Source: Siphonodentalium dalli (taxonomy: Eukaryota > Mollusca > Scaphopoda > Gadilida > Siphonodentaliidae). Taken from it: DNA of 64,000 nt. The notes under the pieces are model-generated. The model ran no database searches and was not told the DNA's origin. It saw only the letters and a list, made by a program, of their open reading frames with translations. Below, piece after piece: positions 15,702 through 57,266 of the stretch. A program made the translations under genes and the position numbers. The first letter of the stretch is position 1, and each line of letters opens with the position of its first letter. Location: contig CP136061.1 of the NCBI GenBank assembly GCA_032622095.1, forward strand, positions 253,839,582 through 253,903,581, read 5' to 3'.

Positions 15702-16346
15702 GCTGAAGGGGTCCATCTCACCAAAAACGTGCTGAAGGGTACACAGGTTTTTTAAATGTGCTGAAGCCTACACAGGGTTTGAAATCTCATTATAAATGAC
15801 GTTTAATTTTCGTGTCTGCTATTATTACTTTCCAATAAAAATTAAAATGGAACTAAAAACAAACTGCTGATGGACGCCAGACTTCCATGAACAGAGCAAA
15901 CTCCATACAGCGCCCTCTACGTTATCACTGCGATATAGCACTGCCACAAGGATGGTACAAGGATGCAGACGATAAATCTATTTTTACAGATCGTCGCGGA
16001 ACTATATTTAGTCACCTATTATCTTGTTTTGACCACCAAATTTTTTTTAAGTTTGCAATAATGGTAATTCTTTCGATCTTGATAAGAACAATATGAACTG
16101 AGCCAGACATAGACAATTTTAATCCTAAAACATAAGAACTAAAAACACGTAAGAAATACTTACCAATTAATGTCCTTATGGCAGTGGTATCTCAGCGGAG
16201 CGATGGGAGATAACTCTGCCTGGAGTTTGTGAACAGAGTTCAAGTATCGGTGTTACTGCCGGTCACAAACCATGTGTACCCTCAAGCACATTTTCAAAAC
16301 CTCTGTACCATTCAGCACTTGTTTTGGTGAGAGTGACCCCTTCACT
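15702..16346. mobile_element. Iteron-type foldback element directly after the zinc-finger gene
   Basis: Left end GCTGAAGGGGTCCATCTCAC is inverted at the right end (GTGAGAGTGACCCCTTC, to 16346). Inside each end a short motif is iterated: GTGCTGAAGGGTACACAGGT and GTGCTGAAGCCTACACAGGG on the left, with inverted counterparts on the right (CTGTACCATTCAGCAC). The element starts 16 bp past the stop codon of the zinc-finger gene. A related copy begins at 19776. Confidence 0.6.
15834..15839 (+). terminator. Candidate polyadenylation signal of the zinc-finger gene
   Basis: AATAAA 148 bases past the stop codon, inside the foldback element 15702-16346. It is the first plus-strand hexamer I see after the stop codon, so the transposon probably supplies the 3' end of the mRNA. 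Confidence 0.45.
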
Positions 16347-16485
16347 ACTTTCGTCTGTGTGACTATTAAATTGGTTGTATCACCGATAACTTATTTTCAC
16401 TTGAGACAAAAAGACCATTTGTAACTTTCTACATTTGTATGGGAGGTAATTTTCACATTTTAAAACATGTATTAAATAATTTGGC

Positions 16486-16764
16486 TAAAAGGGTCTGTAC
16501 ACTAAATCCGACCATTTATGGTACCATCTCCTTTTATACTCAACATAATATATGCAATTGATGAATTAATTTGAGCCATGAATTACATGTAGCGCAAAAA
16601 TACACTCATGTTCTCTATGAATGATGCAAACAACATGGTAATTATAATGAAAATGATGTTATTACCCTAATCATAAACTCATTTTCATTGTAATAACCAT
16701 GTTCTTGAGTATAAAAGGAGATGGTCCCAAAAATGGCAGGATTTGGTGTACAGTACCCCTTTAA
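16486..16764. mobile_element. Foldback MITE (GGTACCATCTCC family), complete copy
   Basis: Left TAAAAGGGTCTGTACACTAA, with CCATTTATGGTACCATCTCC following, pairs with right GGAGATGGTCCCAAAAATGG and TGTACAGTACCCCTTTA. The arms exceed 100 bp and include CATGGTAATTATAATGAAAA facing its complement. Partial copies at 7957-8090 and 56620-56880. Confidence 0.7.
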
Positions 16765-16765
16765 A

Positions 16766-17474
16766 TTGTACATGTAATTAAAAATTCTTCTATTTTAATT
16801 TCGCCAGAAAGAAGCTGAGCCTTTAATTTCTCATTTTAGGATGGCTATACCAATCCTTTTCAAATGTCCATACTTACTTTGAATTCAACCCTTGAGATTA
16901 GTTTTTGTATACCGTACGCCGGTTTTGAACATAACGTGACGCATTATGTTATTGGTCCGTCCTTTCGCTTTTTTCGTTTTCGGGTGATAACTTTGGTAAG
17001 TCTGAACTGAAATTTGGTATGTGGGTTTACTAGCCCAAAATACAGGTCATATTCAAATTCGGGTTCCGCCCCCCCCCCCCCCCCCCCCCACCCACCAATT
17101 TTCACCAGAGTTACGACCCTTTTTGTTTGAATTTGCACTTAAGTTTCGTTTCCGGATGATAACTTAAGTCTGAATTGAATGGAACGAATGGTATGTGAGT
17201 TTACTAGCCCAACATACATGTCAATTTCGAATTTGTGTTCGGCCCGCCAATTTTCACTTGAGTTTTCAACATTCACCATACTTGTGTGTTTTTTTTTGGT
17301 CAAACTATATACCGTGTGTCGATGCTGTTGAGTTAAGTTAGCTATATAATGCATACGTTTAAAAACCATCGATAAAACATGAATACTCAGTTACTTAACA
17401 GCCTCCGCTCACAGTATTATGGTCGGTATTTGTTTTATGTATATTCATTTCGCCTTCTATGTACCGCCTGATGA
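16766..17474. repeat. Dispersed repeat module with a 21-C run; no gene
   Basis: Two related segments (near 16975-17100 and 17145-17265) each read GATAACTTnnGTAAGTCTGAA, GGTATGTGNGTTTACTAGCC and CCAATTTTCACC. The first carries a C run at 17069-17089. Related wording (GGTATGTGGGTTTCTCAGCC-like) occurs in the foldback at 17548-18395. Confidence 0.45.
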
Positions 17475-17546
17475 CTTCGGGGGTAAAAAATATTTGATTC
17501 GAGTCGAGGAACCCACCCATCAAAGCTCAGAGTGATCAGATATAGA
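17475..17546. repeat. Dispersed repeat R, left fragment
   Basis: TTCGGGGGTAAAAAATATTT, then GATTCGAGTCGAGGAACCCA and CAGAGTGATCAGATAT. Continues at 18815-19075 after an insertion. Intact relatives lie at 44585-44920 and 45890-46110. Confidence 0.6.
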
Positions 17547-17547
17547 T

Positions 17548-18395
17548 TTTTATGTTTACCCATACCATAGTATGGTAAACATAGTGTCAACGTCCGGATT
17601 TACCACTCGTCGTTAGTCCGTCCGTCGTCTGTCTTTATGTCTATCTGTCTGTAGACACTTTACGCATGGTGCGATAACTCGAACATTTTCTATCCGACCG
17701 GAATCAAATTTTGTATGTGGGTTTCTCAGCCCAAAATACAGATCGAGTTCGAATATGAGTTTGATCCGAGTTTTTTATACGGAGTTATGGCCCTCTGACA
17801 TAGAATTCATGCATGCTTCGATAAATCAACAATTTTTCAACTGATAGGAACCAAATTTGGTACGTGAGTTTGTCAACTCAAAATACAGATCGAGTTTGAA
17901 TATGGGTTAGATCTGACATTTTATACCAGAGTTATGAACCTTTTTCAACTAAGAATTGAACAAATAACCATAGCAGTCTACAACTAATTAATTACCAGTG
18001 GTATCACTTTAGCTCTGAGCGAAAATGTTCGAGTTATCGCACCATGCGTAAAGTGTCTACAGACAAACAGACGGATGGACTAATGACAGGTGGTCAATCC
18101 GGACGTTGACACTACCATACTATGATATGGGTAAGAGTAATTTTTATGTTTACCCATATCATAGTATGGTAGTGTCAACGTCCGGATTGACCACATGTCA
18201 TTAGTCCATCCGTCTGTTTGTCTGTAGACACTTTACGCATGGTGCGATAACTCGAACATTTTCTATGTGATCGGAACCAAATTTTGTATATGAATTTATC
18301 AGCACAAAAGACAAATCGAGTTCGAATATGTGTTTGATCAGACTATTTTTAACTAATTTATGGCCCTTTTTCGAAAATAATATTCACTCTTAAAA
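17548..18395. mobile_element. Foldback element plus a second partial copy
   Basis: Copy 1 runs from GTTTACCCATACCATAGTAT (17554) to the inverted CATACTATGATATGGGTAA (near 18130). The arms also share GTGTCAACGTCCGGATT, TAGTCCNTCCGTC and GACACTTTACGCATGGTGCG. A second left arm starts at about 18147 in the original orientation and breaks off near 18390. The insertion splits the older dispersed repeat R. Confidence 0.65.
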
Positions 18396-18814
18396 AAAAA
18401 AAAATAGTTTGAATTCCTTGCTCTATTTAACATAAGCCTGTGATTTGTTGACAGCTCTGCTGTATAATTGATACTAATCGGTCAGCAGTGAGGTGTTTAT
18501 CTTGATGGCTGTTGTGGGTAGAATTTGATACAGTATCATTATAAACTGAAATTGGAATCTCTTGACCAAGTATTCCATGTCCAGGTCACCTATCCACATT
18601 TAACCCAAGGCTGTGGTGGTTCAGCATTACATATCCTGTTCCAGTGCATTCTCTTATATAAATGTGAGTGACCCATAAATTCCAATAATTTGTGTTATGT
18701 GCATTGTCTATAATAGTACCTAACAGTATACACTATAATTCAACATCAAAACTCTCATTTATGATTCCGATCAGAGTAATTTACTCTCGCCAAGGGATGG
18801 TTAACATCTGCCGA
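18396..18814. other. No gene recognised
   Basis: AT-rich sequence with a degraded fragment of the GCATTCTCTTATATA palindrome family near 18649. Nothing else identified. Confidence 0.4.
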
Positions 18815-19075
18815 TCGTGATCGGCCTCTCGTTAAAATCTATTATTGTTCACCACCTGGAATATTTAGTGACCCAGTAAAAGTCGACGAGAAGACTGTCT
18901 CGGACCAAATTGCGGATGAAGATGGATAACTCTAAAATCAAGTGGCTTTTTGTGTCAGAATTTGACAAACCGGCAACATTTCGTTGAAGAAAATGTTGAT
19001 AAATAACAGGTTTTGGGCAATTTTATACTATATTTGACTGTGGATAGCTTTATTTTTCGGCAATTAATCGATTCT
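18815..19075. repeat. Dispersed repeat R, right fragment
   Basis: Contains AAATTGCGGATGAAGATGGA, CTCTAAAATCAAGTGG, TTTGTGTCAGAATTTGA and TGTTGATAAATAACAGGTT. These match 44735-44890 closely and 46050-46090 more weakly. Confidence 0.6.
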
Positions 19076-19077
19076 GT

Positions 19078-19258
19078 ATGCCTGTATGGTGCTTATTTGA
19101 ATTATCTGGGCTGGTCCATGCCTGTATGGTGCTTATTTGAATTATCTGGGCTGGTCCATGCCTGTATGGTGCTTATTTGAATTATCTGGGCTGGTCCATG
19201 CCTGTATGGTGCTTATTTGAATTCTCTGGGCTGGTCCATGTCTATATTGTGCTTATTT
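19078..19258 (+). repeat. Tandem repeat, 40-bp unit x about 4.5
   Basis: Unit contains CATGCCTGTATGGTGCTTAT and TTGAATTATCTGGGCTGGTC. The first three copies look identical, the fourth has one change (TTATC to TTCTC) and the fifth is partial and diverged. Confidence 0.9.
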
Positions 19259-19775
19259 GGAACATTTGTTTCATCAACAAATTGCCATCTTCCGACAGGA
19301 TATGGTGCATGTCTGCCAAATTTTTTTGAACCATCACTCTGGTCAAACAAAGATAGTGCAAACATTTTGCTGGATATCTGTTAGTAACATTTAATGCTAA
19401 TATACCAGTACTAGTATTATATGTCACTTGTTATATTGATGTGGCTGCAATTAAGTTCATCTGCAATTACATGTCATAAAATATTCTTTATATTAATAGG
19501 ATCTAATTCTGGATGATTTTTTTCTGAAAACACGCGAGACATATTCCTCTCACATATGTTCGACATAAATATTGACTTCCCTTACAATGAATTGTGCTTC
19601 AGTGCAATTAAGTTGTGACTTGATCGCTAAATAAATGATGATAGTGATTGATTTAGCAACATTATGTTGGCCTTTAAAATAATCTCAATTTCAAACTATC
19701 AATTCGAAGGGAAAAATCATTATCCTCTATAACCACTGTATGCTATAGTACTATAACAACACCTGCCCTACTATG
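19259..19775. other. No gene recognised
   Basis: AT-rich sequence without a foldback pair, tandem repeat or convincing coding segment that I can see. Confidence 0.4.
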
Positions 19776-19995
19776 GCTGAAGGGGTCACTCTCACCAAAA
19801 AAAAGTGCTGAATAGTGCACAGGTTTTAAAATTATGTTCTAAATGACGTTTAGTTTTCGTTTCTGTCATGATTTCCTTTAGAGAATAACTGTTTACGTTA
19901 TAATGATCATTAAAATGAACCGAAAACAAATTTCTGATGGGCGCCAGACTTTCAGGAACACAGTTGTGCCTTCTTAATGATATACACGTCCTGGT
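19776..19995. mobile_element. Iteron-type foldback element, left portion
   Basis: Begins GCTGAAGGGGTCACTCTCAC and continues GTGCTGAATAGTGCACAGGT, then TAAATGACGTTTAGTTTTCG and CTGATGGGCGCCAGACTTTC. It parallels 15702-15880 throughout. It is interrupted by the next element at 19996. A degraded right end may be GAGCGACATTCAGCC near 20476. Confidence 0.55.
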
Positions 19996-20377
19996 GCTGA
20001 ATAGGTCACTCACCGGTTTTCTGTGATAAAGTTACCCAGGTTCCTAAATTTGTGATAAAGTTACCCAGGTTGAAGAGAATTGTGATAAAGTTATCCAGGT
20101 TAAGCAAATCTCACAATATCAACTCGATTTAAAAGTCACCGATGGAAATATTGTTCAGTTTTGGCAAATTAATAGCCCTTATTAATAATAAATTAAGATA
20201 TATTAGTACTGTAGTTTGTCATTTTGATCGCAAAAATCAATAATTTGTTGCTAAACGCGAAATGTTATTAACCTGGGTAACTTTATCACAATCCTCTCAA
20301 ACCTGGGTAACTTTATCACAATTTCAGGAACCTGGGTAACTTTATCACAGAAAACCGGTGAGAGTGACCTATTCAGC
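19996..20377. mobile_element. Iteron-type foldback element, complete 382-bp copy
   Basis: Ends GCTGAATAGGTCACTCACCG and its inverse (...GAGAGTGACCTATTCAGC). Each arm holds three direct copies, spaced about 29-30 bp, of a motif: TGTGATAAAGTTACCCAGGT on the left and CCTGGGTAACTTTATCACA on the right. The 170-bp centre is AT-rich and non-coding. This is the clearest member of the family described under findings. Confidence 0.75.
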
Positions 20378-20539
20378 CGTACTAGTAGGTCTTCTGCAAC
20401 ACAATTCACAATATGAAAAGTATTGACGTGCGTTCACATGTTTTCTGCTGAATCAAAAATACCGGTATGAGGGAGCGACATTCAGCCGATCATTCCTGTG
20501 AATTATTTTGTATGTAGTGAGTTGTCCTGACTGAGTGAA

Positions 20540-20855
20540 GCTGAAATGGTCATTGTCACCCCCTTTCATTCAGTTGGGTACCCAGCTTTTTAAAACTTTC
20601 AGTTAGGTACCCAGCTTTTATAAAATTTACATTTGGGTACCCAGCTTTATGAATCAGGTCGATCTGCAGTACCTATGTCCTATGCATACAATTCCTCTCC
20701 GCTATTATTTTCAAGTATCGTGACGAATCTACATCATAATTCATATATAAATACGTATTCACACATTTAACAGGTTCATTTCGCAATCAAGTGACGACAA
20801 TAACTAATTAAATCACGCTGTGTGTGAGATTTGATAAAGCTGGGTACCCAAATGT
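20540..20855. mobile_element. Iteron-type foldback element, cut by the assembly gap
   Basis: Starts GCTGAAATGGTCATTGTCAC, followed by three copies of GGGTACCCAGCTTTN spaced about 32 bp. The inverted counterpart GATAAAGCTGGGTACCC appears at 20832 just before the N run. The rest of the right arm is lost in the gap. Confidence 0.65.
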
Positions 20856-20955
20856 NNNNNNNNNNNNNNNNNNNNNNNNNNNNNNNNNNNNNNNNNNNNN
20901 NNNNNNNNNNNNNNNNNNNNNNNNNNNNNNNNNNNNNNNNNNNNNNNNNNNNNNN
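20856..20955. other. Assembly gap, 100 N
   Basis: Exactly 100 N. The round length suggests a placeholder of unknown true size, next to a satellite array that could explain why the assembly broke here. Confidence 0.99.
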
Positions 20956-21748
20956 ATAAGCTGTTCGTAATACTTATCAGTAGTAGTTCATTATGCGACT
21001 ACTATAAGCTGTTCGTAATTCTTATCAGTAGTAGTTCATTATGCGACTACTATAAGCTGTTCGTAATTCTTATCAGTAGTAGTTCATTATGCGACTACTA
21101 TAAGCTATTCGTAATTCTTATCAGTAGTAGTTCATTATGAGACTACTATAAGATGTTCGTAATTCTTATCAGTAGTAGTTCATTATGCGACTACTATAAG
21201 CTATTCGTAATTCTTATCAGTAGTAGTTCATTATGCGACTACTATAAGCTGTTCGTAATTCTTATCAGTAGTAGTTCATTATGAGACTACTATAAGCTGT
21301 TCGTAATACTTATCAGTAGTAGTTCATTATGCGACTACTATAAGCTGTTCGTAATTCTTATCAGTAGTAGTTCATTATGCGACTACTATAAGCTATTCGT
21401 AATTCTTATCAGTAGTAGTTCATTATGAGACTACTATAAGATGTTCGTAATACTTATCAGTAGTAGTTCATTGTGCGACTACTATAAGATGTTCGTAATT
21501 CTTATCAGTAGTAGTTCATTATGCGACTACTATAAGATGTTCGTAATACTTATCAGTAGTAGTTCATTATGCAACTAATATAAGCTGTTCGTAATTCTTA
21601 TCAGTAGTAGTTCATTATGCGACTACTATAAGATGTTCGTAATTCTTAGCAGTAGTAGTTCATTGTGCGACTACTTTTAGATGTTCGTAATACTTATCAG
21701 TAGTAGTTCATTATGCGACTACTATAAGATGTTCGTAATTCTTATCAG
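20956..21748 (+). repeat. Satellite, 48-bp unit x about 16.5
   Basis: The unit runs ATAAGCTGTTCGTAATTCTT, ATCAGTAGTAGTTCATTATG, CGACTACT. Variants (CTGTT/CTATT/ATGTT, ATTCTT/ATACTT, GCGAC/GAGAC) alternate through the array. Each unit contains an AGTAGT...ACTACT inverted pair. The left edge is the gap, so the array may be longer. Confidence 0.93.
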
Positions 21749-21812
21749 GTTTCAATCACGGCATTAATTCCGCCAACAATCATGTTCACGGCATGTATCA
21801 TGTAATAAATAT

Positions 21813-21960
21813 AATCTACAACTCATCCCCAGTTTATAGCATAATTTACAAAACTCGTCCAGTAAATTAGGTCTGGACATCGACAAAGGCTCGGTCCAGA
21901 CCTAGTTTACTGGACTCGTTTTGTAAATTCCGCTATAAACTGGGGACTCGTTGTAGATCC
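21813..21960. mobile_element. Hairpin MITE (GTCCAGACC family), copy 1
   Basis: Arms: TCTACAACTCATCCCCAGTT, ATTTACAAAACTCGTCCAGT, AAATTAGGTCTGGAC, then a short loop containing AAAGGCTCG, then the inverse. The arms are about 67 bp with few mismatches. Second copy at 43187-43333. Confidence 0.75.
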
Positions 21961-21980
21961 TCTATTGTAACAACGACGCT

Positions 21981-22139
21981 GTTTTCTGACTATATTTTGA
22001 TATCAAATGTATGGCAATAGATTATTTTGGTATGAAATCTTTGTTATTCCCCTCTGAACACCAACGGCGTGTTTCACGTCACTTTAATCTTGATCATGTT
22101 CATCGCATGGTTCTCTTAATTGTGCATAACGTATATATT
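21981..22139 (+). repeat. Repeat with a circularly permuted inverted partner at 27 kb
   Basis: Block A (GTTTTCTGACTATATTTTGA ... GATCATGTTCAT, 21981-22104) is followed by block B (GGTTCTCTTAATTGTGCATA, ACGTATATAT). The partner at 27046-27203, read on the minus strand, has B directly followed by A. Confidence 0.65.
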
Positions 22140-23171
22140 GGAGGAGGTAGTTAAAAACAAGATCTGCGATCAACGACAGCGTGGCTAGAATGTATCCTTC
22201 GTCGGGGGATTGCAGCTCCCACTTTCAAACTGACCGAAATTTCCAATTCCTGGAAAATCCATTTGAACCCCGTCGGAGTTTGGAGTTCTCAGGCTTTCTA
22301 ATTGTTGAACATATCCAACCTAACACCGCCTATATTTATTTGGAAAACTCCAATTGATGACCATTTGTTGTAAAATATAGAGATCCGGGGGGCTGGGAAA
22401 CACCACAGAATACAAGGGTAAACCTGTCTTCGGTAACATATATGGACAAAGGTGATCATTATCTAGGTACACATTCCGAAGCGCCACTTGGACAATTCCA
22501 TAGTCAGTTAAATTAAAAACAGGAGCATAATAGAGGTATGCCTGCATGGTATTTTGAAATTTGGAAAATATAGGTAATACATATGACAGAGTATGCGTAC
22601 CAGTATCGTAGAATCACGCACTATCATAAATGAACTAGTTATACGTATTAAAATATTTTTTAGTTTCATGATTGTCCCATACCGGTAGTTTCATGGGGGG
22701 GGGGGGGGGGGTCGCGCACAAAAATTCCATATATGAGGCGGGGGTGGGTGGGTCATTTCACCCGGAAAAAATACGTAAATGACAAAAAATGCAAATTTTT
22801 TTCCTCCACTTAAAATCACTGTTTTTGTGCTCATGTAATCTGTTAATATCAACCATATGACACACTATGCTATTTAAAACATACTAACCAGAACTAACTA
22901 CCATTTAGGGGTGTATGTATGCTGATGTATGTCAAAATTAATGTACCAGATTTCGACGGATGAAAGATATATTATATAAGCATAATTATGAAATGATTAC
23001 CATCTTCTGTTCTTAATCCACATAATGGATATTATTTGTTATCAAGATAAACTTGATGATACAAACAAAAATAACAGTTCCACTATATTCCACTGGTTTA
23101 AAACTATAAAACAAATTAACTCATACAAAAAGTTCATACTATTTGGATAACAATATGAAAACTTAGCCTTT
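22140..23171. other. No gene; low-complexity and dispersed repeats
   Basis: Contains a 17-G run (22695-22711) and G/T-rich sequence after it. The CCAATTGATGACCATTT stretch near 22348 recurs near 26880. The 75-codon minus-strand frame at 22320-22547 has no recognisable motif. Confidence 0.4.
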
Positions 23172-25467
23172 TAGTCCAGGAGATATTGGTCGACCTCTGC
23201 ACCCCCCCCCCCACAGGACTCAACTTCACCCCACTATTTTTCTTCCTTAAGGTCTCCTATAATTTTTTTCACTTGTTAACAAGAAAAAAAGTGGCCGCAG
23301 AGACTCCAGACAAGATGGCGTCCATCATGGCGGCCATTTTTTTTAAATGCACCATGTCTCTTTGATCGCCGTTATAGTAAAGATGATAACACATGTGGAC
23401 TTTTTTCCGCTAGATTCGTTATGCTAATATACAACCCTTACAAATTAGCCAAAATTCCGACACCAGAATCCAAAATGGCGGCCAAGATGGCCGCCGAAAT
23501 GTGAAAATATGCTATTTTTCTGACATGTTACCACCTTTCGTTTGTCTCTGTGGGAAAATGTTGGCATATTTGCACCATGTTATACATTTATCATATAGAG
23601 GAGTCATTTTCGACCACATGAGGACCATAATATACTTTCATTGCGGGATATTTTTGTCCGATATAACGTTTTCCCAAATGCCGGTATAATAGGTCAAAGC
23701 CGAATCTACGTTAATAACGCGATGTAATGTTTCGAATCAATGAATGTTATTGCTATTATAACAGCACCCATGCATATATATTTGCAGGAGATACTCGAGC
23801 TAGGATTCTTCTTATATCTGAGTTGAGGAATATTTACCCAAATCCAAGATGGCGGCCAAAATGGCCACCAGAAATAAAAAATCGCCGAAAATCGCCGATT
23901 TTAACATCAGTGAGCATTATTGTCATGAAAACTCCACACCTGTTTACTATTGTGAGTTGGGAACACTTAGGCGAAGAACTTTCCTTGTACCGTTTCAAAA
24001 TAAAAGTACCCCAAATCCAAAATGGCGCCCACAATGGCGGACAGATTTTGAAAAATCACCGAAATTTCCTCATATTCACATCATTGGGCATTATTGTCCA
24101 GACAACTCCACCCATGCTTACAGTTGAGTTGGAAATACTGAGGAGAAGTAATTACCTTACATCTCATGCAAGAAATTGTTTTCCAAATCGTAGATGGCGG
24201 CCAAAATGGCGATCGAAATTTGAAAATACGCCTACATTCCTTTACTTTCTTAGGATGGGCGTTATTGTTTCGCGATTTCTACCCACCATTACATGTTGAT
24301 ATGTATGCATTATTCATTAGGGTTTGGCAAGTGATATTCACAGTCAATATGGCAGCCAAACTGGCGGCCAGAAATTGAAAATAAGCCCATATTATCACAT
24401 ACTAATTTCAATTTTTTCTCATAATATCGATTTGTATAGACGGAACGGTACATAATATAAACCATATATTAGTTCCAATGTAAGTCGTAGCCTTTTGGAA
24501 CGATGACAACCCACAATCGCTATGTGGCATTTAAAAATCCATTCTCCACTAAGGGTTCATACTGGCCGTAACCGTATATGGGTGCGCCGAATAGTCATAT
24601 TATGACTTCCAGGAATCAAAACAACAGTACCTGAGCTTATTCTGAATTGCCACATTCAGCATTATCTAGACCCGTTTCCGTCTCTTCGTCAGATTAATCT
24701 TTCTCACTCACAACAACAGTTTACTACACTTCTTTGTAGAAGGGTGCCACTAATCGGAATGTTTCAAACAATACATATGCCGGTGTCCAGCTCACGTGTT
24801 TGTTTCGAAAGCTTGGAATTCTTGGATTTGGGTAAACATTCCTCAGCTCAGATATAAGAGGAATCCTAGCTCGAGTATCTCCTGCACATATATATGCATG
24901 GATGTTGTTATAATAGCAATAACATTCATTGATTCGAAACATTACATCGCGTTATTAACGTAGATTCGGCTTTGACCTATTATACCGGCATTTGGGAAAA
25001 CGTGATATCGGACAAAAATATCCCGCAATGAATGTATATTATGGTCCCCATGTGGTCGAAAATGACTCCTCTATATGATAAATGTATAACATGACGCAAA
25101 TATGCCAACATTTTCCCACAGAGATAAACGAAAGGTGGTAACATGTCAGAAAAATAGCATATTTTCACATTTCGGCGGCCATCTTGGCCGCCATATTGGA
25201 TTCTGGTGTCGGATTTTTAGCTAATTTGTAAGGGTTGTATATTAGCATAACGAATCGAGCGGAAAACAAGACCGCATGTGATATCATCTTTACTATAACG
25301 GCGATCAAAGAGACATGGTGCATCTTGTCTGGAGTCTCTGCGGCCACTTTTTTTTCTTGTTAACAAGTGAAAAAAATTATAGGAGACCTTAAGGAAGAAA
25401 ATTAGTGGGGTGAAGTTGAGTCCTGGGGGGGGGGGGGTGCAGAGGTCGACCAATATCTCCTGGACTA
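23172..25467. mobile_element. Large foldback element, arms about 650 bp, with YY1-like motifs
   Basis: The left arm (23172-23848) starts TAGTCCAGGAGATATTGGTC. The right arm (24825-25467) ends with its complement. The arms look about 90 percent alike. The 980-bp loop and the arms contain AAGATGGCGGCC-type sites near 23313, 23471, 23847, 24020, 24190, 24349 and 25170-25195, several about 160-170 bp apart. The 190-codon plus frame at 23727-24299 translates the repeated modules and shows no protein family, so I do not call it a gene. Confidence 0.7.
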
Positions 25468-25810
25468 TTTTGTGACATTAAATCAACCACAGTTATTATT
25501 CACAAGTCTAAGCAGTTAGGTACTGTACATATACATGTAATAAGGTAGTATATCTTGGAGTTCCAGTTATTTGACTGCCAATACATATGGTATTGTATTT
25601 ATTAGTTGTTTGTTCATTATTGGTTGCTTTGATATTTAATTTAGGATATAGCAGGATAGAGCAATGTAACTATAAAAGTAGCTTTTGGTATTAAAGTCTC
25701 AACTTATTCCATATGCAACATAAAGCTAGAATATAAACATGACTAATATGAACTTTGTTCTTGAAACTAATTATAAATCATACTAACCTGGATCAAACTG
25801 CACAGGTAAT

Positions 25811-42320: not shown

Positions 42321-42322
42321 AA

Positions 42323-42676
42323 CCCTTTGATTGGAGCTGCGCTGGTGCAGCATTGCATATCATGTGCCAGTGCATTCTCTTATATATGCGAGTCACCAAT
42401 ATGGAGGTTCGAATATATAAGAGAATGCATTGTCTTACAAGGTCAAGGTAAATATTGTTAGGCCAATGCATTCACTTATATATGCGAGGCTGCCTATGGG
42501 AGACAGGCATATATAAGAGAATGCATCGGCTTACACGGTCAAGGTAAATGTTGTTAGGCCTATGCTTTTACTTATACATGTACATGCGAGGCTGCCTATG
42601 GGAGACTCGCATGTACAAGATAATGCATTTTCATAGGATTTCGCAACAATTTCCGGTAGCTCCAGTCATGGAAGGG
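42323..42676. mobile_element. piggyBac-like MITE inside the duplicated exon segment
   Basis: Starts CCCTTTGATTGGAGCT and ends AGCTCCAGTCATGGAAGGG, flanked by TTAA (42319-42322) and TTAA (42677-42680). Inside are three successive palindromes of the GCATTCTCTTATATATGCGA type, one with an extra TACATGTA. The duplicated exon sequence resumes after the right TTAA (TTAAAGGCGCGG versus TTAAAGACACGTG). Confidence 0.75.
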
Positions 42677-45364: not shown

Positions 45365-45450
45365 TCATGCCATGAATCAAAACCTTGGAACTTTTTGAAG
45401 TTTTGACAGGGAACATTATAAAGTTGAAAAAATAACGCGGGGAATATATA
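45365..45450. repeat. Short dispersed repeat, also near 8140 and 57105
   Basis: ATCATGCCATGAATC, then GGAACTTTTTGAAGTTTTGA and CAGGGAAC. The same text with a longer middle (CTCTGGCTAACGCCCGTA) occurs at 57105-57215. The first part also begins the retrotransposon fragment at 8.1 kb. Confidence 0.55.
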
Positions 45451-45889: not shown

Positions 45890-46110
45890 ATTTCTTTGGC
45901 TCCGGGGGTAAAAAATATTTGATTCGAGTCAAGGAACCCACCCATCAAAGCTCAGAGTGATCAGATATCAGTTTTGAAGTTTGATATTTCTCGAGATGTG
46001 TAATAATAAGTGGCCCAGAAACACGTGGTCAAAATGAGGGTCTCGGACAAAATTGCGGATGGAGATGGATAACTCTAAAATTAAGTGCTAATACGGTCAA
46101 ATTTCGTGGC
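45890..46110. repeat. Dispersed repeat R, third copy
   Basis: GGCTCCGGGGGTAAAAAATA, GATTCGAGTCAAGGAACCCA, AAATTGCGGATGGAGATGG. More diverged after 46000. Confidence 0.6.
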
Positions 46111-47677
46111 AAAAACAATTCAGGATACCCCAATTAATTTTCAAAGGTTCAAATCAAAGGAATATTTGTTTTCATTAACCGATATTTAGCAATAAAGTTA
46201 ATTAGACAAACTTTGAGGCACAACGACGAGTTCCACAATAGCGATCATGACTTTATTCGGAAGAATAAGATTAACCCATAAAATATGAAAACTCAGAATA
46301 GCATGGATACATTAAACAGAATGCCATGGCGAATGTAATTACGCAAACAACAAGGCAGCAAGCGAGCTATCAGTTTTAAGTTAATAATACAGCCTGTACC
46401 ATGCTTTAGAGCACAATCCCATTGTTGCAATCGTTCCCTGATTTTTGGTAAAGCACACCAATTCCCAAGGCTGGCGAAGGAATAGTTCAGTGATTATCCC
46501 ATTGTTAGGCATGTGCACACGCAACTCATAACATATAAATCGCACGGGCGCTTCAAAGTGGGACCAGTCCGTGTAGTTTCGGACATATCTATTCACATTC
46601 AACGGCGATTAGTTCATGTTAATCGCGTTGTTGGGCGTGGCTAACCGGCTATTGTGTCCAATCGCGGCCAGCGCACGGATTGTGCGTCGTGGTCAAAACA
46701 CTACCAACGGCACATTTCCAGTTGATTGTATTATGTGCAATTGTTCTCTAAGTCGGTCAGAACACGCGAATAGTTCTTTACCAGAATAAATCTCGTCTTC
46801 GACTCGATTGAGTCTAGTAAAGAACAATTCTTGTGCTCTAACCCTTACTTGTGTAGCGGATGCAGATTTGCCCCTCCGGTAATGTTCATACAAGTGGATG
46901 TCTTTATCAACTGCTCTATTCTAATGAACATTACAAGAGGGACAACTCTATCTGCTATGCTCATTATAAAATCACCTAATTCTAATACACCTCAGGTGGT
47001 GCATACCTGGTCCCGTATATAGAGGTAGTAATGGTTTTGCTGTTCTTTGTTTGTAATATTGTCCAGGTTAAAGCCACACCGGCTTCCAGGAGCCAAATAC
47101 TAAAGTAAATCATATTTACTGGTATTTGGTTGCCTATGCTGTTTTCTTAAGTGGCATTCTGTATCCAACCAATAATGGACCTGTGATGCATGTCTTTGCT
47201 ATTTTAATAAAGTATGCATTTTTGACTGCTAGTTGTCATTTGAACTCTGTCGGGAATCGTACGATCAGACAGGAATCTGCTTCCTGTTACACGTATACGA
47301 CATTTAAACTAGAACGTTCATGCATTATGCCACAAGTCGACATTCATAACCCAGAACGTCCATTTCCCCAGTGTTCACAGCAAAGTCCACACGCAATTTC
47401 CACTCACACGAGCCGTTCAAGGATCGTGGTTTTGTTGTCAGCCAACAAACGTTCGTAAACGTCTCATTTATAGAAATTTATATAGATTTATCATAATTAT
47501 TCATCTGTATCAATGTATTTCTGTATTTCTCCTTGTATATTATAAGACTGGACATTCGTCAACTATAAATGGTCTCGGCCTACGGCCTCGACAATCTAGT
47601 TTACGAATATCCAGTAGCTCATCCTTTAGCCTGATAGGATTATACCTGTAACACAGACTGTTATCCAATATTTCCAG

Positions 47678-47817
47678 GTTGCTGGACATACTTTTGTTGG
47701 CCGTGCGTGCTGTGTGACTTGTCGGGTCGGCTCGGTGACTGTCCATGTATGCCTTTCTGTGTACCCGGAGCTGAAATCGCCATGAGAACTAGAGTCCGAA
47801 CCCTGGGCGGAATAAAG
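47678..47817 (+). CDS. PLAC8/cornifelin-family protein, coding exon 2
   Basis: Starts after acceptor TTTCCAG, completes the split Cys98 codon and encodes residues 99-144. The Cys-rich PLAC8 core reads CWTYFCWPCVLCDLSGRLGD, then CPCMPFCVPG and AEIAMRTRVRTLGGIK. This aligns with the family pattern CLCGTFCxPCLxCQVA...AMRTxxRxxxGI. It ends in phase 0 at donor AAG|GTAAAT. The phase agrees with exon 1 before it and exon 3 after it, with no stop codons. Confidence 0.92.
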
Positions 47818-49120
47818 GTAAATGTGTCCCTCCATCGATCCGTGCCATGGCTAGAGGGTCTCCGTTGGGGGGGGGGGGTGTATAAGTTGAAATTTTCAAA
47901 GGAACCTCCCCTTGAAATTTCAAAGCCCCACACCGCTTTATAACAGCCCATATTTCCAATTTGGGGAATTTTCATTTGCCCCCACCCCATTGTGTTGGAA
48001 TTCTCCAACTGGTTCCTCAAACTTTCAAACTGTTAGAAATTTCCGAACTAACACAGCTCTATATGGTTGTAAATTCCCAAACGGATTGCTATTTCAGTCC
48101 AAAATTTTAAAACTTTTGGTTTAAAACCAATAAAATTCAAACTAAATTCCGGCATGAATATGAGATTATCATAACAAATTCAACCCACTTTTGGTTTGAA
48201 ATTACCAATAAATGTTGTGTTGGGCATGAAATGTCAAAATGTTTAAAAGTTTGGCCAAAGTTGGTGGTGTCCAACACCCCCTTGTTGCTGTTTCACGACT
48301 TTATATCGATATACCCACAGAGACTATATCGCTCGATATCATTTCACGCTGTTGGGATAATTCGATTCCGATTTACTTAAAGGGACCCAAGGTGCCCACA
48401 GAGGGTACATGTCCAACAAATATAAGAGTCTGGAAACATTTCCACTCAGAACATGTATAAATAGAGAAACGTTGTTCTTATATTCATCACTGACAACACT
48501 TAATGACATATCATGTATTTGTTCGGGTGCATGAAACTGATAAGTTAGCATTCAGGAGCTATGCCAACTGGAGGAATGTAGCATTCTACTAACATCACCG
48601 AAAATCTCAAGCAAATCGACCGTACCACTCCATAGAAAACATTATCTGAACTACGCTAAATTGTAAATATTTACTACTCGAATCGGGACGCTTCTATCAG
48701 CGATATAATAATGAAAACGATTTCGCCATCGGCAGTCACTGCATTTAATTAATACATACGAGTGACGTTGTGTGTTGTCAATTTTAATAGATATAATATC
48801 TGTAAAAATAACTACTTTGAACAAGATTATTCTCCATTTCTATTTGATCACCCAACCGGGGTGTTTCACTTCACTTTAAGTGGCGAAAGTTCACGCGTTG
48901 AACCACTGTGATGTAAACAAAACTGTCATAGTAATTTGTCAACAAATATCGCTAACCGTGTAGTAAGTTCAAATATTTTAATCTGAATATTATTTCCAGA
49001 ATATTTATTCAATGCTTTGACCTTTTCCAATGTTTACCTTCAAGTTTTGATTAACTTTTGTTATCATATTGAAATAATTGGACTGTTATCGGTAATTCAT
49101 CTGTAACAGTAATACGCCCT

Positions 49121-49361
49121 GTCACTAAGTCGCGGTCATATTGGATCCACCCGGTCCGGTTCCGTGGTTTTAGTGCTACAGGTCAAAGTTTTGGAGTAGC
49201 ATTCCATATATGGAAATCATGAATAATTCAAAAGCTCCATATATGGAAATGCTACTCCAAAACTTTGACCAGTAGCACTAAAGCCACGGAACCGGGGCTG
49301 GAAGAATCTCTGAAACCACGGAATGGAACTGGATGAATCCAATACGGCCGCTACTCAGTGA
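49121..49361. mobile_element. Foldback with nested inner hairpin
   Basis: Outer arms: GTCACTAAGTCGCGGTCATA, TTGGATCCACCCGG and GTTCCGTGGTTTTAGTGCTA. Inner hairpin: AAAGTTTTGGAGTAGCATTC and CATATATGGAA with its inverse. An extra CCACGGAATGGAACTGGATG on the right makes the outer arms unequal. Confidence 0.6.
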
Positions 49362-49614
49362 TCTCGCTTATGTTTCATTAAGAATGGTTTTGACTTTCGA
49401 AATTTCATTTTTGGAGAGTTACTAATAATGTAACAAAGAACAAATTCAATCTATTTGTGTACATGTAATTGTTGATGATCTTTGTTTTATAGACTTTTAT
49501 AAATTTTATATTATATCACATGAACCAACATCGAAGGTCTCGAGTCGTTTTAATTCTCCAATCATCACATTTGACATGAAGTTTTATGGAGACCAATATT
49601 ATAAAGTTATTATA

Positions 49615-49729
49615 CAATGTTGTGTACAGTATGTGTTTTTTGTACACTGCTTGTCTCGTCCAATGTGACTTTTCACCACAACCTGGACGAGTACAAGAAA
49701 AACACATACTGTACAGAACATTGTATAAT
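49615..49729. mobile_element. Foldback element (CTCGTCC hairpin family), copy 2
   Basis: TACAATGTTGTGTACAGTAT ... GTCTCGTCCAATGTGACTTT, then ACCTGGACGAGTACAAGAAA ... ACAGAACATTGTA. The left arm is shortened relative to copy 1. The outer end, TGTTAGTTAAGGGATGGATA, lies near 50062-50085. Confidence 0.55.
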
Positions 49730-50457
49730 CACATTTGTATTATCCATCTGTATGTTTATCCAAATTGTAGGAATAAACTTTTGTGGTCATTTAAGACTCA
49801 TTTTTGGTATTTGTCGGCACTTGATTCTCTGTAAAAGCCTGTAATTGATCAGCAGAAATCATGATTTGGGACAGTAAACACGGAAGTGAAAAAAAAATTA
49901 ATACTGAAGTGAAATCCTGCGCGCGCATCACAATTTTACCGATTCATTTGGCAATAGAGTTACTTCGTGACGTCATGTAGTCCCTATAAAAAAAGCCTTA
50001 TGAGTCCAATATGACTTTTTCCCGGATTATCATGTGACGGATTTTGCCCAATCAGAAATAGTGTTAGTTAAGGGATGGATAATAATATTCAATTTACATA
50101 CATAGTGGAATTAAAATATGCAATAACCGAAGTAATATATTGAAGAATTTGTATGTTGTCTGGGATTGCATATGAAATACAGTTTTATAGCGATTGGGTT
50201 CGCTCGGACTGAGGCCGACTTATAATGGTTACTGCAGTCTAAGTAAACTGACTACATAACAATAACATGTTATCGAACTATATGCTAGTATCGCCCTTAA
50301 ACCGAGTAATATCGATTTGCGGCATCTCCAATCCGAGTAATATGGATTTACGACATGCCGAAAATTCTACTTCACTATATACTATAAAATAACGTATATG
50401 TATCCATTTGATATCAGCCATCGGTAACCCTATATCAGCCTTCGACCTTCGGTTTCA

Positions 50458-50571
50458 GGCTGATATGAGGTTACCTCGGGCTGATATGAGGTTACCTCGG
50501 GCTGATATGAGGTTACCTCGGGCTGATATGAGGTTACCTCGGGCTGATATGAGGTTACCTCGGGCTGATAT
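50458..50571 (+). repeat. Tandem repeat, 21-bp unit x5.4
   Basis: GGCTGATATGAGGTTACCTC plus G, five identical copies and a partial sixth. The unit is a multiple of three and translates as ADMRLPR. There is no sign it is coding, and it lies in intron 2. The unit contains GAGGTTACCTC, an odd palindrome. Confidence 0.92.
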
Positions 50572-51246
50572 TGGGCCTAATATCAAACAAACCAAGTAAT
50601 ATCCGCTAAATATATATCATGGAATCCCATTACTTTGGAAGAGTATTATATACATCAGTGTCAACCAATCAAAAATTCTCAGGACTCAACAGAAGTCACT
50701 CAGAGATAATCGTGAATTCGGCGAACCTCATCGTTCTTGTTTAGTTTAGTTTCTCTATATCCCAAAATTGGCAGACGACACATTGCACAATCGAGGTTCC
50801 CAATGGGTGTTCCAGTGGGAATTTCAATCTGAGTCTATGTCTCCCATAGCAGTCGAGGCCAGTGGAAAAATATTTCTCAACTTATTAGGGTTGTGTCTCA
50901 GTAATGGGTTGGTTTCACAACTAGCCAATGGGTTATACCTAACAGACATTAGTTTGGGGCAGATTTTCACATAGGTTGGGAAGTTTATCCTCACCATGGA
51001 TGGCGGGAACATGGAACTGCCTCAAAGTAAAGCAGTCATATGTGCTAAACTTAAGGCAGCAACACATAAGAACGTGTACCTACTAATTGGCAGCCCATAT
51101 AAAATTGGTTTTGTAATTTCGAATCCGCGTTTAATAGACACGTTTCATACTTGTGAATTTGGTTGACAATCCGAAACCGTAATCGTAGCTACGGGTAGTG
51201 GAAAAACTACAACGAATAGAAAGAATACGAATTCTAATGACATGGT

Positions 51247-51660
51247 ACCCGCCATATCAAATGCAGTCGTAAGTCGGGATTTTTTTTACCCTGTGCCAAT
51301 GCATTCTCTTATATATGCGAGTCGACCATAGGTCGCCTCGCATATATAGGAGAATGCATTGGCCTAACAATTTTTTACAATTTTAATAATTTTTTCTTGT
51401 ATTCTTTAACAATTTTATAATTTCACCCATACAGAGCCCCAGACAAATATGAGCAGACGACACTCTTCTATATGCTTCTATATATGTGCGGGGCTCCCTG
51501 CAGGGTAATGGATGTTTTTTATTTTATGTGCTAAAAATTGTAAGAAACTTTTATTTTAAAAAAATGATAAAAAATTGTTAGGCCAATACATTCTCTTATA
51601 TATGCGAGGCGACCTATGGTCGACTCGCATATATAAGAGAATGCTTTGGCACAGGGTAAA
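51247..51660. mobile_element. Double-palindrome element, right end truncated
   Basis: Starts CCCGCCATATCAAATGCAGT. It carries two GCATTCTCTTATATATGCGA palindromes and, between them, an AGAGCCCCAGACAAATATGA segment facing GTGCGGGGCTCC. The right CCCGCC end found at 53696-54121 is missing after GCACAGGGTAAAAC. Confidence 0.6.
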
Positions 51661-51965
51661 ACAATGACCACATGGTACATAATCGTAATTTTTATCTGTC
51701 GTAGTAGCGAAAGGTGTCTATTGATTGTTCGCGATAGACAGGTTACAAAGATCGAATATCGCGACCAGGTTACGAACAGGTTACAAACGAACAGGTTCTT
51801 GGCAATTTGAACATATGAGAACAGACCAAGAACATGTTCATGTGTTTGTATTCTTATTCCCCCAATTCGGTGAGTGAGATTCCAGACCCGACAACGCATT
51901 TTCTTTGTATGTTCTTGGTACGTTCCTGATCTGTTGTCGGAGTTCTGACAACGCGAGTCACGTCT

Positions 51966-52415
51966 TAATGGCGCTGAATTGGTCACTCACACCGTTTTTT
52001 TTGTGATGAAGGTACCAAGGTCCCGAAAATTGTGATAAAGGTACCCAGATTGGGAACAATTGTGATAAAGGTATCCATGTTAATCTACGGTCGACGAGGC
52101 ATTTTTGAGTTACACTGCAGGACAATATATCAAAGGATACATTAGTTGATATACTTCGTCGGGACTACATTCTCTCAATTTAGAGTAGTTCAAACACCTT
52201 AAAACTGAAAGCAACTTCCTACATCTAAACGACTTTCCAGCAAAGACATTGAAATCTCGTTTATTTTGAGATATGATGAATCTGAGTAATTTCAGCACGA
52301 TTTTTCCCAACCTGGATACCATTATCGCAACCCGGATACCATTATCGCAATTTTCAGAAGCTGGGTACCTATATCACACAAAAAACCGGCGAGTGTGACC
52401 AACTCAGCGCCATTT
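51966..52415. mobile_element. Iteron-type foldback element
   Basis: Ends TTAATGGCGCTGAATTGGTC and its inverse (...CCAACTCAGCGCCATTTAA). The left arm has three iterons of the form TTGTGATAAAGGTACCCAGA. The right arm has three of the form CTGGATACCATTATCGCAA or CTGGGTACCTATATCACA. It sits inside a larger inverted pair of AAGAACATGTTC-type sequence (near 51831 and 52822). Confidence 0.7.
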
Positions 52416-52961
52416 AAGCTCGGGGGGGGGGGGGGGGCAGGTAACTACGTTTTAAAATTTGTGCGTTTCAACCTGGAACCAGTCTATTCAACAAGAGACA
52501 TCGAGCCCAAATAAACAGACACGAGAGTCGCAAAAACAATGGCAGACGACAGCTAAATAGCAATTTAATTTCCATTCACTGAGCAGTTATATCAACTTTG
52601 AGACGAAATTCATTCAATAAAATGTCCTTTTACTTCCATGAACTAGAAATTTAGCCAGTTGTCGAATTTCGCGCGATAGAATTGTCCTTGTCTTTGTTCA
52701 CCGAAACGTAGCAACCTGACCAATTTAGCGTCATTAACACCATGCACGTACCAAGAACATACAAGCAACGTGTTCTCACCTCCTCCGAATTTTGGAAACG
52801 AGAATACAAACCAATGGACATGTTCTTGATCTTTTATAACAAAAATACCGGTGAAACCAAATGAGCCTTAGCGGCCTACTGATCTCGAACACAGAAGAAT
52901 CGGATTGTCACCCACATATGAATGCGAATCGTGGGGAGTGACGACATACCCATAGCGTGTA

Positions 52962-53358
52962 GCTGAATAGGTCATTGTCGCATGGTTTCTGGCAAAAAGA
53001 CACCCAGAATCTCTTAAACTGTCAAAAAGACACCCAGGATCTCAAAGTATCGCCAAACAACGGGAATATTGTTTAGTCGTCTGCTATTAATATTAAGATA
53101 ATTATTTGTTTGTGATAGGAGTGAAATATCAACGAAATTTAATTCGGCTTTGAGTCTAACTTACAGCGCAATTCCACATCCTTGATAGTTGGACCAATAT
53201 TAATAGCAGACGACTAAACAAACCTCCCGTTGTTTGGTGAGACTTTGAGATCCTGGGTGTCTTTTTGACAGTTTAAGAGATCCTGGGTGTCTTTTTGACA
53301 GTTTAAGAGATCCTGGGTGTCTTTTTGCCAGAAACCATGCGACAATGACCTATTCAGC
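52962..53358. mobile_element. Iteron-type foldback element (GGGTGTCTTTTTG iterons)
   Basis: Ends GCTGAATAGGTCATTGTCGC and its inverse. The left arm has two copies of CAAAAAGACACCCAG. The right arm has three of CCTGGGTGTCTTTTTG at 32-bp spacing. An inner inverted pair (CAACGGGAATATTGTTTAGT, CGTCTGCTATTAATA) lies inside the arms. Confidence 0.75.
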
Positions 53359-53695
53359 CATAGTATATATACCAGGGATATCGGAATGTTTGAGGCTACA
53401 CAACGAGTATAGCCATTCAATAGTCCGGATTCACTCAGATTGAGTATGTTATTACTGTTCTTTAGTTGACTGGCTGGTATATTAGTCTACACTCATTAAC
53501 ACCAGGCACATGTATTCAATGGAATCCGAGCCATTGAATACACATTAGTGTATACTCTAGTGTAACACTCGCTGGAACTATTCTTGTTCATTTTGTCGCC
53601 AAGAACGATGACGTTCATTATACGTCAACGATCCGCTTCGGTGATGTCCCGACAATTACTGGTTTTTCATCAGAGTTAAATCACAATAAATGTAG

Positions 53696-54121
53696 CCCGC
53701 CATATCAAATGCAGTCGTAAGTCGGGATTTTTTTTACCCTGTGCCAATGCATTCTCTTATATATGCGAGTCGACCATAGGTCACCTCGCATATATAAGAA
53801 AATGCATTTTAATAATTTGTTCTTGTATTCTTTAACAATTTTATAATTTCACCCATACAGAGCCCCAGACAAACATGAGCAGACGACACTCTTCTATATG
53901 CTATATATGTGTGGGGCTCCCTGCAGGGTAATGGATGTTTTTTATTTTATGTCCTAAAAATTGTAAGAAACATTTTATTTAAAAAAAATGATAAAAAATT
54001 GTTAGGCCAATGCATTCTCTTATATATGCGAGGCGACCTATGGTCGACTCGCATATATAAGAGAATGCATTGGCACAGGGTGAAAAAAATCCCGACTTAA
54101 GACTGGATTTGATATGGCGGG
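53696..54121. mobile_element. Double-palindrome element, complete
   Basis: Termini CCCGCCATATCAAATGCAGT and (inverted) ATCCAGTC...ATATGGCGGG. Contains two GCATTCTCTTATATATGCGA palindromes, the left one shortened. The internal AGAGCCCCAGACAAACATGA / GGGGCTCCCTGCAGGG segment matches 51247-51660. No TTAA flanks, unlike the CCCTTTACCC subfamily. Confidence 0.65.
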
Positions 54122-54232
54122 TCACAAATGTGTAGCCATAGTATCAATGAAAGTGACAGTAATGGATTTTATTTATCTGACACAACGTTGTAATATGAAT
54201 GCAGAATACAATCATAATCTCGTATCTTTTAA

Positions 54233-55395
54233 CCCTTTACCCAACAAAGCGGCCAAAAACCCCCAAAATAAAGCTTCAACAGCCTAAAATATCTTCGGTC
54301 TGTCTCAATAACACCATACAAATATGGATATCATTGGAACCGGTTCATTGACCACATTGTGATGGTTACAGTTATGCCCTGTGCCAATGCATTCTCTTAT
54401 ATATGCGAGTCGACCATAGGTCGCCTCGCATATATAAGAGAATGCATTGGCCTAAAAAAAATCTTTTTTTAACACTTTTTACCATTTTTTCTTACATTCT
54501 TTAACAATTTTATAATTTTTTCTTACATTTTTTAACATTTTTACTTGCGCCAGTCCAGGCTGGACGCAAGTAATGTTTTCGGTTCGGATCTTTGTCTGTT
54601 GTCTGTCCTTCCGCGAACATGTTACGTCATACCGGAAGTACATACTGTAAATAATGGACACGCAAAATATGAAATGGTTGCATCAATTGTAATTTAAATC
54701 AAGATATATACTTAATTTGCATCGTCATCTGGTTTTATTTTGGTAATAAATCGTTCATAAATTAACAATTTTGAATGATTTCTTTCTGGAAACCGATCAA
54801 GACGCAATGACGTCATGACGCACATCAGGGCGTCACGAGCTACATGGGCGCGCAAAACACCAGACATGATTGCGTCGATGTCCTGACAACTGCGACTCGT
54901 GTTACACGGACTGGCTATTCCATCTGCCAACAACTTCGTTTCGTATCTTTATATGAACGATGTCTATAATGTTCTATAAATATGTCAAACAACTCGTACG
55001 TATTACCGAGACTAGCATTTATGATAGTGTAATATATCAACTTGAGATAATAGAGATATTATGTCCGTACACACAACTATTTCAGCGATGGATGAACTGA
55101 GATTTGATATCTAGAATTTTGTTATCGATCTCTCTCAAACGAGGGGCCAGCACCCGTGATTCAAACTGCTGTTGGTAAGACACCGCAACACATGCCGAAT
55201 GTGTGATGGGCGCAAGTATAGGCAGCTTCAGAGAGTGCATTCTAGTTTATAATATTTTTCTACATTCTTTGACAATTTTATCATTTTTAATATGTGTTAA
55301 GCCAATGCATTCTCTTATATATGCGAGGCGACCTATGGTCGACTCGCATATATAAGATAATCCATTGGCACAGGGCCGTTCTGTTGGGTAAAGGG
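54233..55395. mobile_element. piggyBac-like MITE carrying a second insertion
   Basis: TTAA (54229-54232) then CCCTTTACCCAACA; the right end is TGTTGGGTAAAGGG then TTAA (55396-55399). It matches 822-1203 except for about 700 extra bases between roughly 54543 and 55225. These begin CTTGCGCCAGTCCAGG (a small hairpin) and end near GGGCGCAAG. A 73-codon minus-strand frame in the insert (54712-54933) has protein-like composition but no family I know. Confidence 0.7.
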
Positions 55396-55552
55396 TTAAC
55401 GAACTCGTTGCGGACGGAGCATGCATGGATCTCGTGAAATATATCCTTGCGCCATCCGAAACTCATTATATTAAAGATTCTCGATTAAGATGCGCGTTGT
55501 GTTCTCTCCATTTATCACTTTCCTGATCAACTTTACATTATAACTTTTTCAG

Positions 55553-55645
55553 GGGTCAATCTGCGACGACTGTTTAACGGTGTCGTGTTGTGAACTTTGT
55601 TCATTGTGCCAGATGGATAGAGAAATGAAGGCCATGGGAATTTAA
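55553..55645 (+). CDS. PLAC8/cornifelin-family protein, coding exon 3 and stop
   Basis: Follows acceptor TAACTTTTTCAG in phase 0. Encodes residues 145-174, GSICDDCLTVSCCELCSLCQ then MDREMKAMGI, and TAA. This is the classical C-terminal half of the PLAC8 domain (GxxxDDxxxxxCCxxCxLCQxxRE), with the CC, C and LCQ residues present. The joined protein has the usual family length apart from the 80-residue polar leader. Confidence 0.92.
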   Translation, partial: GSICDDCLTVSCCELCSLCQMDREMKAMGI

Positions 55646-55735
55646 TGGACTTCAACCATCCACGGATTGGACTTCTATACCCTCCACGGATCGGCGACAT
55701 TGTAACATAATATATATTATTTCATAGCTTTACTA

Positions 55736-55741
55736 AATAAA
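55736..55741 (+). terminator. Polyadenylation signal of the PLAC8-family gene
   Basis: AATAAA 91 bases past the stop codon. An iteron-type repeat begins 56 bp further on, so the transcript probably ends before it. Confidence 0.6.
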
Positions 55742-55796
55742 ATATTTTAAGAAATTAACGCTTTTAAATCACGTTAATATTGTGATATTTCCTTAA

Positions 55797-56012
55797 CCTG
55801 GGTAACTTAATCACAATTCTCTCCACATGGGTAACTTAATCACAATTCTCTCCACATGGGTAACTTTATCACAATTTCTGGAACCTGGGTAACTTTATCA
55901 CAATTCTCTCCACATGGGTAACTTTATCACAATTTCTGGAACCTGGGTAACTTTATCACAGAAAAACAAAACCGACGAGAGAGATGGGTGAGAGTGACTA
56001 TAATTTCAGTGT
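55797..56012. mobile_element. Iteron-type foldback, right arm with six iterons
   Basis: Six direct copies of a 29-bp unit (CCTGGGTAACTTTATCACAA plus TTCTGGAA or TTCTCTCCA; 55797-55970), then GGGTGAGAGTGACTATAATT and TCAGTG. The iteron is the same as in 19996-20377. No left arm is present, and the number of units is doubled. Confidence 0.7.
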
Positions 56013-57235: not shown

Positions 57236-57266
57236 ATATATTTCTTTGTTATTATCTGTTTCTTAA

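Follow-up and report, generated by a model that had tools for sequence, protein, structure and literature searches.

Foldback elements with similar ends and colinear, apparently diverged iterons in the scaphopod Siphonodentalium dalli, most likely of Mutator-like type

Muta1 of Aedes aegypti (PMC5225508) and Tm1 of Meloidogyne (PMC3169594) are Mutator-type foldback elements, in which a terminal motif is followed by internal tandem repeats. Muta1, called a type-2 Foldback by its authors, produces target site duplications (TSDs) of 8–9 bp, and subterminal tandem repeats occur in 10 of the 12 families of Mutator-like elements (MULEs) with long terminal inverted repeats (TIRs) in Aedes (PMC5225508); Tm1 has composite TIRs and TSDs mostly of 9 bp (PMC3169594). 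In Galileo, a member of the P superfamily in Drosophila, conservation between species is confined to roughly the outermost 40 bp (PMC3573991, PMC3688188), and Rehavkus has a minisatellite ahead of its 3′ TIR and a transposase with a PHD finger (PMC6446971). Here we describe foldback elements from a stretch of 64,000 nucleotides of the Siphonodentalium dalli genome (assembly GCA_032622095.1, contig CP136061.1, positions 253,839,582 to 253,903,581 of the forward strand), which is called the window and numbered from its first letter. An earlier note on this DNA had described them as a foldback family with interchangeable iterons inside conserved ends and had recognised no named family with such a layout, which, however, is that of Muta1 and Tm1. 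These are non-autonomous foldback DNA transposons of the size of miniature inverted-repeat transposable elements (MITEs), and they are probably Mutator-like and belong to one TIR lineage with diverged iterons. They thus form an abundant transposon family, one of an already known and not of a new type, and the interest of the family is the colinear divergence of its iterons accompanied by similar ends and target choice.

The 20-bp terminal signal of each arm reads GCTGAAnnGGTCAYTSTCRC. With up to 3 mismatches GCTGAATAGGTCACTCTCAC has 6 matches in the window, where 0.01 would be expected, and a looser 16-mer of the end gave 14 matches against 3.9 expected, some of them not being real ends. The genome (2.23 Gb in 9 contigs) was scanned on both strands with the reversed pattern as a control for chance. 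The AAC-type end at no more than 3 mismatches occurs 8,695 times against 22 for the control, a number that lumps AAC, GAAG and GTC ends (2–3 bases apart) and is not to be summed with the separate counts of 5,384 for the GAAG end, 1,340 for GTC and 733 for ACC, each with a control of 0. The variants GCTGAACN gave 55 matches. The shared end is therefore real. A literature search for five end strings returned a single match, of one string in a paper on duck microsatellites, in the text available. Thousands of ends, together with readable TSDs in sampled copies, make a large natural data set on the evolution of foldback ends, iterons and target choice.

Insertion sites were compared in 53 distinct two-ended copies from fetched loci, many of which had been picked for closely spaced ends; 40 of these copies are 301–428 bp long. 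The flanking 9-mers are identical in 27 copies, alike at eight positions in 14, at seven in 8 and at four or five in the other 4, so that 41 of the 53 have at most one differing position, and perfect duplications of 5–8 or 10–12 bp were found in none of the 53. A TSD of 8–11 bp, typically 9 bp, is the rule for MULEs, and the perfect duplications at 9 bp in 27/53 copies conform to it. The TSDs of the window copies have decayed (their flanking 9-mers agree at 7/9 positions for 19996–20377, at 5/9 for 15702–16346 and for 52962–53358 and at 2/9 for 51973–52408); it is other genomic copies that demonstrate the 9-bp TSD. In all four subfamilies (AAC, GAAG, GTC and ACC) the target has an A-S-T centre within a palindromic TTASTAA-like (TTA[C/G]TAA-like) motif. 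In 41 copies with both strands pooled, the A and the T of the centre each reach a frequency of 0.91, and the surrounding T/A preference is weaker (0.52–0.55); the A.T centre is present in 34 copies (AAC 15/17, GTC 7/8, ACC 4/6, GAAG-containing classes 8/10). One target 9-mer joined to GCTGAAnnGGTCA was registered at 600 places of the genome with no more than 2 mismatches; the reversed control gave 3.

The arrays inside the ends have a common register. When arms were sorted by the terminal 20-mer only (31 AAC, 18 GAAG, 26 GTC and 13 ACC), the first iteron core (ACMCAG) started at position 41 in the consensus of every subfamily, as ACCCAGG in AAC and GTC, ACACAGG in GAAG and ACCCAGC in ACC, with a column agreement that is high in AAC and GTC, lower in ACC and weak in GAAG (about 0.5–0.7). 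Counted in single arms, with classes assigned by iteron and 6 of 118 arms unclassed, the first exact core lies at 41 in 35/43 AAC, 24/28 GTC, 13/19 ACC and 9/22 GAAG arms, and 3 more GAAG arms have it at 40. Successive cores follow each other at 29–31 bp in 127 cases out of 147. Between subfamilies the identity at register 0 over positions 21–75 amounts to 0.40–0.58 versus 0.24–0.27 after shuffling, and was reached by 0 to 404 of 20,000 shuffles, depending on the pair. Iteron class is the same at both ends in 48 of the 53 two-ended copies, one arm is without a classable iteron in four (L082, L083, L084 and L100), and differing types at the two ends were found in none of the 53, these four included; the comparison takes the first iteron of each arm and not mixtures within an array. 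L089, the one copy that looked like an AAC/GTC hybrid, is a GTC copy with an indel. Within the iteron the subfamilies have a seven-base core in common and vary in most of the twelve outer columns, with the exception of a G three bases ahead of the core. Since the register at 41, the period of 29–31 bp and the iteron types at both ends all agree, the simplest reading is that a single repeated site in one colinear TIR has diverged into the various iterons and that these are not exchanged modules.

The opposite idea is that conserved ends gained unrelated iterons by recombination and thereby switched the binding site of the transposase; the earlier note had suggested modular arrays and a possible switching of such sites. 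The difference of most outer-half iteron columns among subfamilies would fit such an exchange, and chimeric copies are known for Galileo (PMC3573991, PMC3688188). Against it stand the start at 41 and the mostly 29–31 bp period common to four subfamilies, the shared ACMCAGS core, the lack of any copy among the 53 with different iteron types at its ends (four having one unclassable arm) and the AAGCAAAATGACACCCAGG iterons, which look intermediate between the GTC and AAC types. The exchange of modules is therefore improbable, and the colinear register speaks for an in situ divergence of the subterminal arrays. Several observations nevertheless weigh against such divergence from one site. In 13/22 GAAG and 6/19 ACC arms the first exact core is not at 41, five core spacings in ACC equal 20 bp, and in 4 of the 6 subfamily pairs another shift beats register 0 by 0.03–0.08 over positions 21–75, for which indels or A-runs could be the cause. 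In addition, conservation of the core in the iteron alignment is circular, because the core served as the search key. Nearest-neighbour identities, which go up to 99.7% in AAC and reach at most 90.8% in GAAG (41 copies, including some segmental duplicates), give a hint of bursts that followed one another.

If the iterons diverged in place, the subfamilies may be taken as one TIR lineage whose iterons would have kept ACMCAGS and changed most of the outer half. From the layout of the arms it is plausible that the end signal is separate from the repeated subterminal signal. We infer that a transposase supplied in trans would bind the iterons by its DNA-binding domain, cut at the GCTGAA terminus and insert the element, by a staggered cut of 9 bp, at palindromic sites resembling TTA[C/G]TAA. 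A tentative extension, which we hold to be possible though not the likelier course, is that the subfamilies record stepwise co-divergence of this domain and its sites, with the ACMCAGS half constant (its first copy at 41), the outer half diverging in concert through the array, and very little change in the end signal or the target preference. If that were true, the genome would hold matched specificities and offer a test bed for the escape of a transposase from its own parasites.

It is the TSD length and the layout that make MULE membership the most likely assignment. Muta1 and related Aedes MULEs have, like the present family, long TIRs in which a short terminal motif is joined by tandem repeats, as well as numerous non-autonomous copies and a variable repeat number (PMC5225508), and Tm1 resembles it in foldback TIRs with a terminal motif and a variable number of 14-bp motifs and in MITE-like members (PMC3169594); in S. 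dalli the terminal motif is likewise followed by subterminal tandem repeats, with the register at 41 and a period of 29–31 bp. This period differs from the 12-bp repeats with 3–4 bp spacers of Muta1, the transposase of which is known (PMC5225508), whereas none was found here, and the two are likened by description, not by sequence. Tm1 differs in its asymmetric 7-bp outer motifs lying outside the inverted repeat and in the Phantom-type transposase found for it (PMC3169594), while none has been linked to the S. dalli elements. Rehavkus is similar in its 9-bp TSD and TIRs of 26–400 bp (PMC6446971). The Mutator-like assignment has several points to its disadvantage. No apparent target preference is described for Muta1 (PMC5225508) and no clear target consensus for Tm1 (PMC3169594), in contrast to the palindromic TTASTAA-like motif with its A-S-T core in 34/41 copies here; such a lack of preference is a trait reported for these two families and does not hold as a rule for MULEs. 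Framing family ends were absent from the flanks of 44 of 150 MULE matches, namely 30 places with 1.5 kb flanks, 8 windows of 6 kb and 6 downstream stretches, some of them near-identical duplicates. One MULE place considered as a partner, L059, was rejected, having an end fragment only, in a stretch that we interpret as intronic sequence of a ZSWIM-like gene. A further point on this side comes from the superfamily that we consider the main rival.

In this rival explanation it is a Merlin (IS1016/IS1595-like) transposase that mobilises the family. Merlin transposases make TSDs of 8–9 bp, and the genome contains 62 matches to PF12762, several of them with stop-free frames of 483–574 aa. We know of no subterminal tandem arrays in Merlin elements. 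Such arrays have been reported for animal MULEs (PMC5225508, PMC3169594), and the one Merlin match noted near a family end (C3:59960732) is some 2.9 kb away from the paired ends and outside them, which leaves this origin unlikely, though less so than the exchange of iterons. A P-superfamily foldback family like Galileo would account for foldback-like, long and internally repetitive TIRs, for subfamilies and for multiple sites for the transposase domain, but the flanking sequences of Galileo are 7 bp long, its transposase is of THAP/P type and chimeric copies were found in it (PMC3573991, PMC3688188), against only 9-bp perfect TSDs and no chimera in 53 copies here. Not one of the 53 has a perfect TSD of 7 bp, as in Galileo, or of 8 bp, the TSD length of P elements. 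Kinship with Galileo appears very improbable, and the Mutator-like assignment is preferred.

Candidates for the enzyme were sought by domain matches over the genome, with at least 150 matches for PF10551 (MULE; 150 of 813 candidates scored), at least 150 for PF04500 (FLYWCH; 150 of 822 scored) and, as mentioned, 62 for PF12762 (from 77 candidates, all scored); closeness of family ends to MULE, FLYWCH and Merlin matches was judged by eye among the matches listed, which cover part of the ends. Two multi-copy MULE classes were dismissed as partners, their boundaries, by eye, being unrelated to the family ends. The same holds for L061, a MULE open reading frame (ORF) that has a GTC end at a distance of about 8 kb, because this end belongs to a MITE remnant adjoining other sequence. 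The best lead to an autonomous copy is the 4,621-bp copy at C3:59964036-59968656, which came to notice through the Merlin match at C3:59960732 that lies outside it. It has an exact ACC right end with the 9-bp target-like flank GTCAGTAAC, and at its left end the same 9-mer and end with 1 mismatch in the joined pattern; 91 nt beside its right arm are unlike two ACC MITEs. No PF10551, PF04500 or PF12762 match lies inside it among the matches listed. If this copy holds the transposase, four site variants and the enzyme could be matched directly.

Other long copies with family ends are mostly MITEs broken by other sequence. L009, L010, L077, L083, L085, L086 and L114+L120, tried as autonomous elements, fit MITEs split in this way. 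In L083 a BED-finger ORF lies within an insert bearing CAGGGTTGGG ends, which we take to be hAT-like. For L004 and L071 the comparison with MITEs was by BLAST only, and L011 was inspected only by eye. L082 and L084 have the same composite structure, and because the right arm and the inner junction are common to them, yet their perfect 9-bp TSDs differ, the composite probably moved as a unit; it seems to consist of a MITE together with sequence that was captured or is nested. Neither of the two contains a long ORF, the longest open frames being 88 and 94 aa. Patterns of the inner TIR edge designed to exclude MITE interiors gave 7 places for GTC, 6 of which were read: 5 continue into a MITE interior, which in one of them (L117) extends for about 124 bp before other sequence begins, and the sixth is the nested copy L114. 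The AAC inner edge was found at 39 places, and 16 of them were read at 80 bp each. Six are MITE-like (L123–L126, L131 and L134), six match repeats elsewhere in the sequences sampled (L121, L122 and L135, which are one repeat, and L132, L133 and L136), and L127 (weak MITE match only), L128, L129 and L130 are without assignment. In L128 and L129 (C3:20634226 and C3:41022095) an intact AAC inner TIR edge is followed by the same non-MITE interior; a DNA search with the interior of L128 came back empty despite these two known copies, which makes it a false negative and not evidence.

In the window the elements have long inverted arms built largely of direct repeats, with subterminal arrays, just as the earlier note had it, and its starts at 15702, 19776, 19996, 20540 and 52962 were reproduced, while the one put at 51966 is at 51973. 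Iterons were counted per arm (left + right) in a scan allowing 4 mismatches. The GAAG-type element at 15702..16346 (645 bp) has the left end GCTGAAGGGGTCCATCTCACC, a degraded right end and 2 + 2 GTGCTGAAGGGTACACAGG-like iterons, and a GAAG-type left arm with a single iteron (19805) occupies 19776..19985 on the plus strand, where the right end was not found and the fragment end is approximate. The AAC-type element at 19996..20377 (382 bp; 3 + 3 iterons GTGATAAAGTTACCCAGG) is 93% identical to the genomic copy L012, and its flanks CGTCCTGGT / CGTACTAGT are those that agree at 7/9. The ACC-type element at 20540..20855, plus strand, has 3 iterons (GTTGGGTACCCAGC) in the left arm and 1 in the right arm before it is interrupted by a gap of 100 N at 20856–20955. 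The AAC-like variant at 51973..52408 (436 bp; 3 + 3 GTGATAAAGGTACCCAGG-like iterons) is without a TSD, its flanks CTTAATGGC / GCCATTTAA forming an inverted, not a direct, repeat; it sits within a larger inverted repeat, 51820–51870 / 52785–52835. The GTC-type element at 52962..53358 (397 bp; 2 + 3 iterons CAAAAAGACACCCAGG) has 82-nt terminal arms, 52962–53043 and 53277–53358, which pair at 99%, and the fold of its 397-nt single strand has z = −27.5. The element expected at 55797 does contain six iterons, at a 29-bp period, but it is a solo AAC-type arm on the minus strand (55797..56010) with a degenerate right terminus near 56010 and no left end seen; GTTACTAAT directly after it fits the family target motif. 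The lone end placed at 56454 was found at 56455..56474, plus strand, as ACTGAATGGGTCATTGTCGC without an array, and is the weakest item among these.

Several other features of the window were registered. A near-perfect hairpin repeat, GCCAATGCATTCTCTTATATATGCGAG..., occurs many times in 51281–57361 (e.g. 54006–54074, 54383–54451 and 57293–57361) and in tandem at 42366–42628, and is probably another foldback or MITE family. A tandem array of 48 bp in 16.5 copies (20956–21748) stands directly past the gap that cuts the 20540 element, and a long frame of 1,432 codons (11388–15686), which encodes C2H2 zinc fingers and contains repeated blocks, ends just ahead of the 15702 element. The open frame at 62339–63733 has DUF3504 and phage-integrase-family domains and is presumably a tyrosine recombinase of the type often seen in Cryptons. 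Finally, a single frame of 1457 codons with no intron in the stretch runs through 2866–7239; its LisH and WD40-type matches are all under the curated Pfam cut-offs, and we assume a resemblance to DCAF1.

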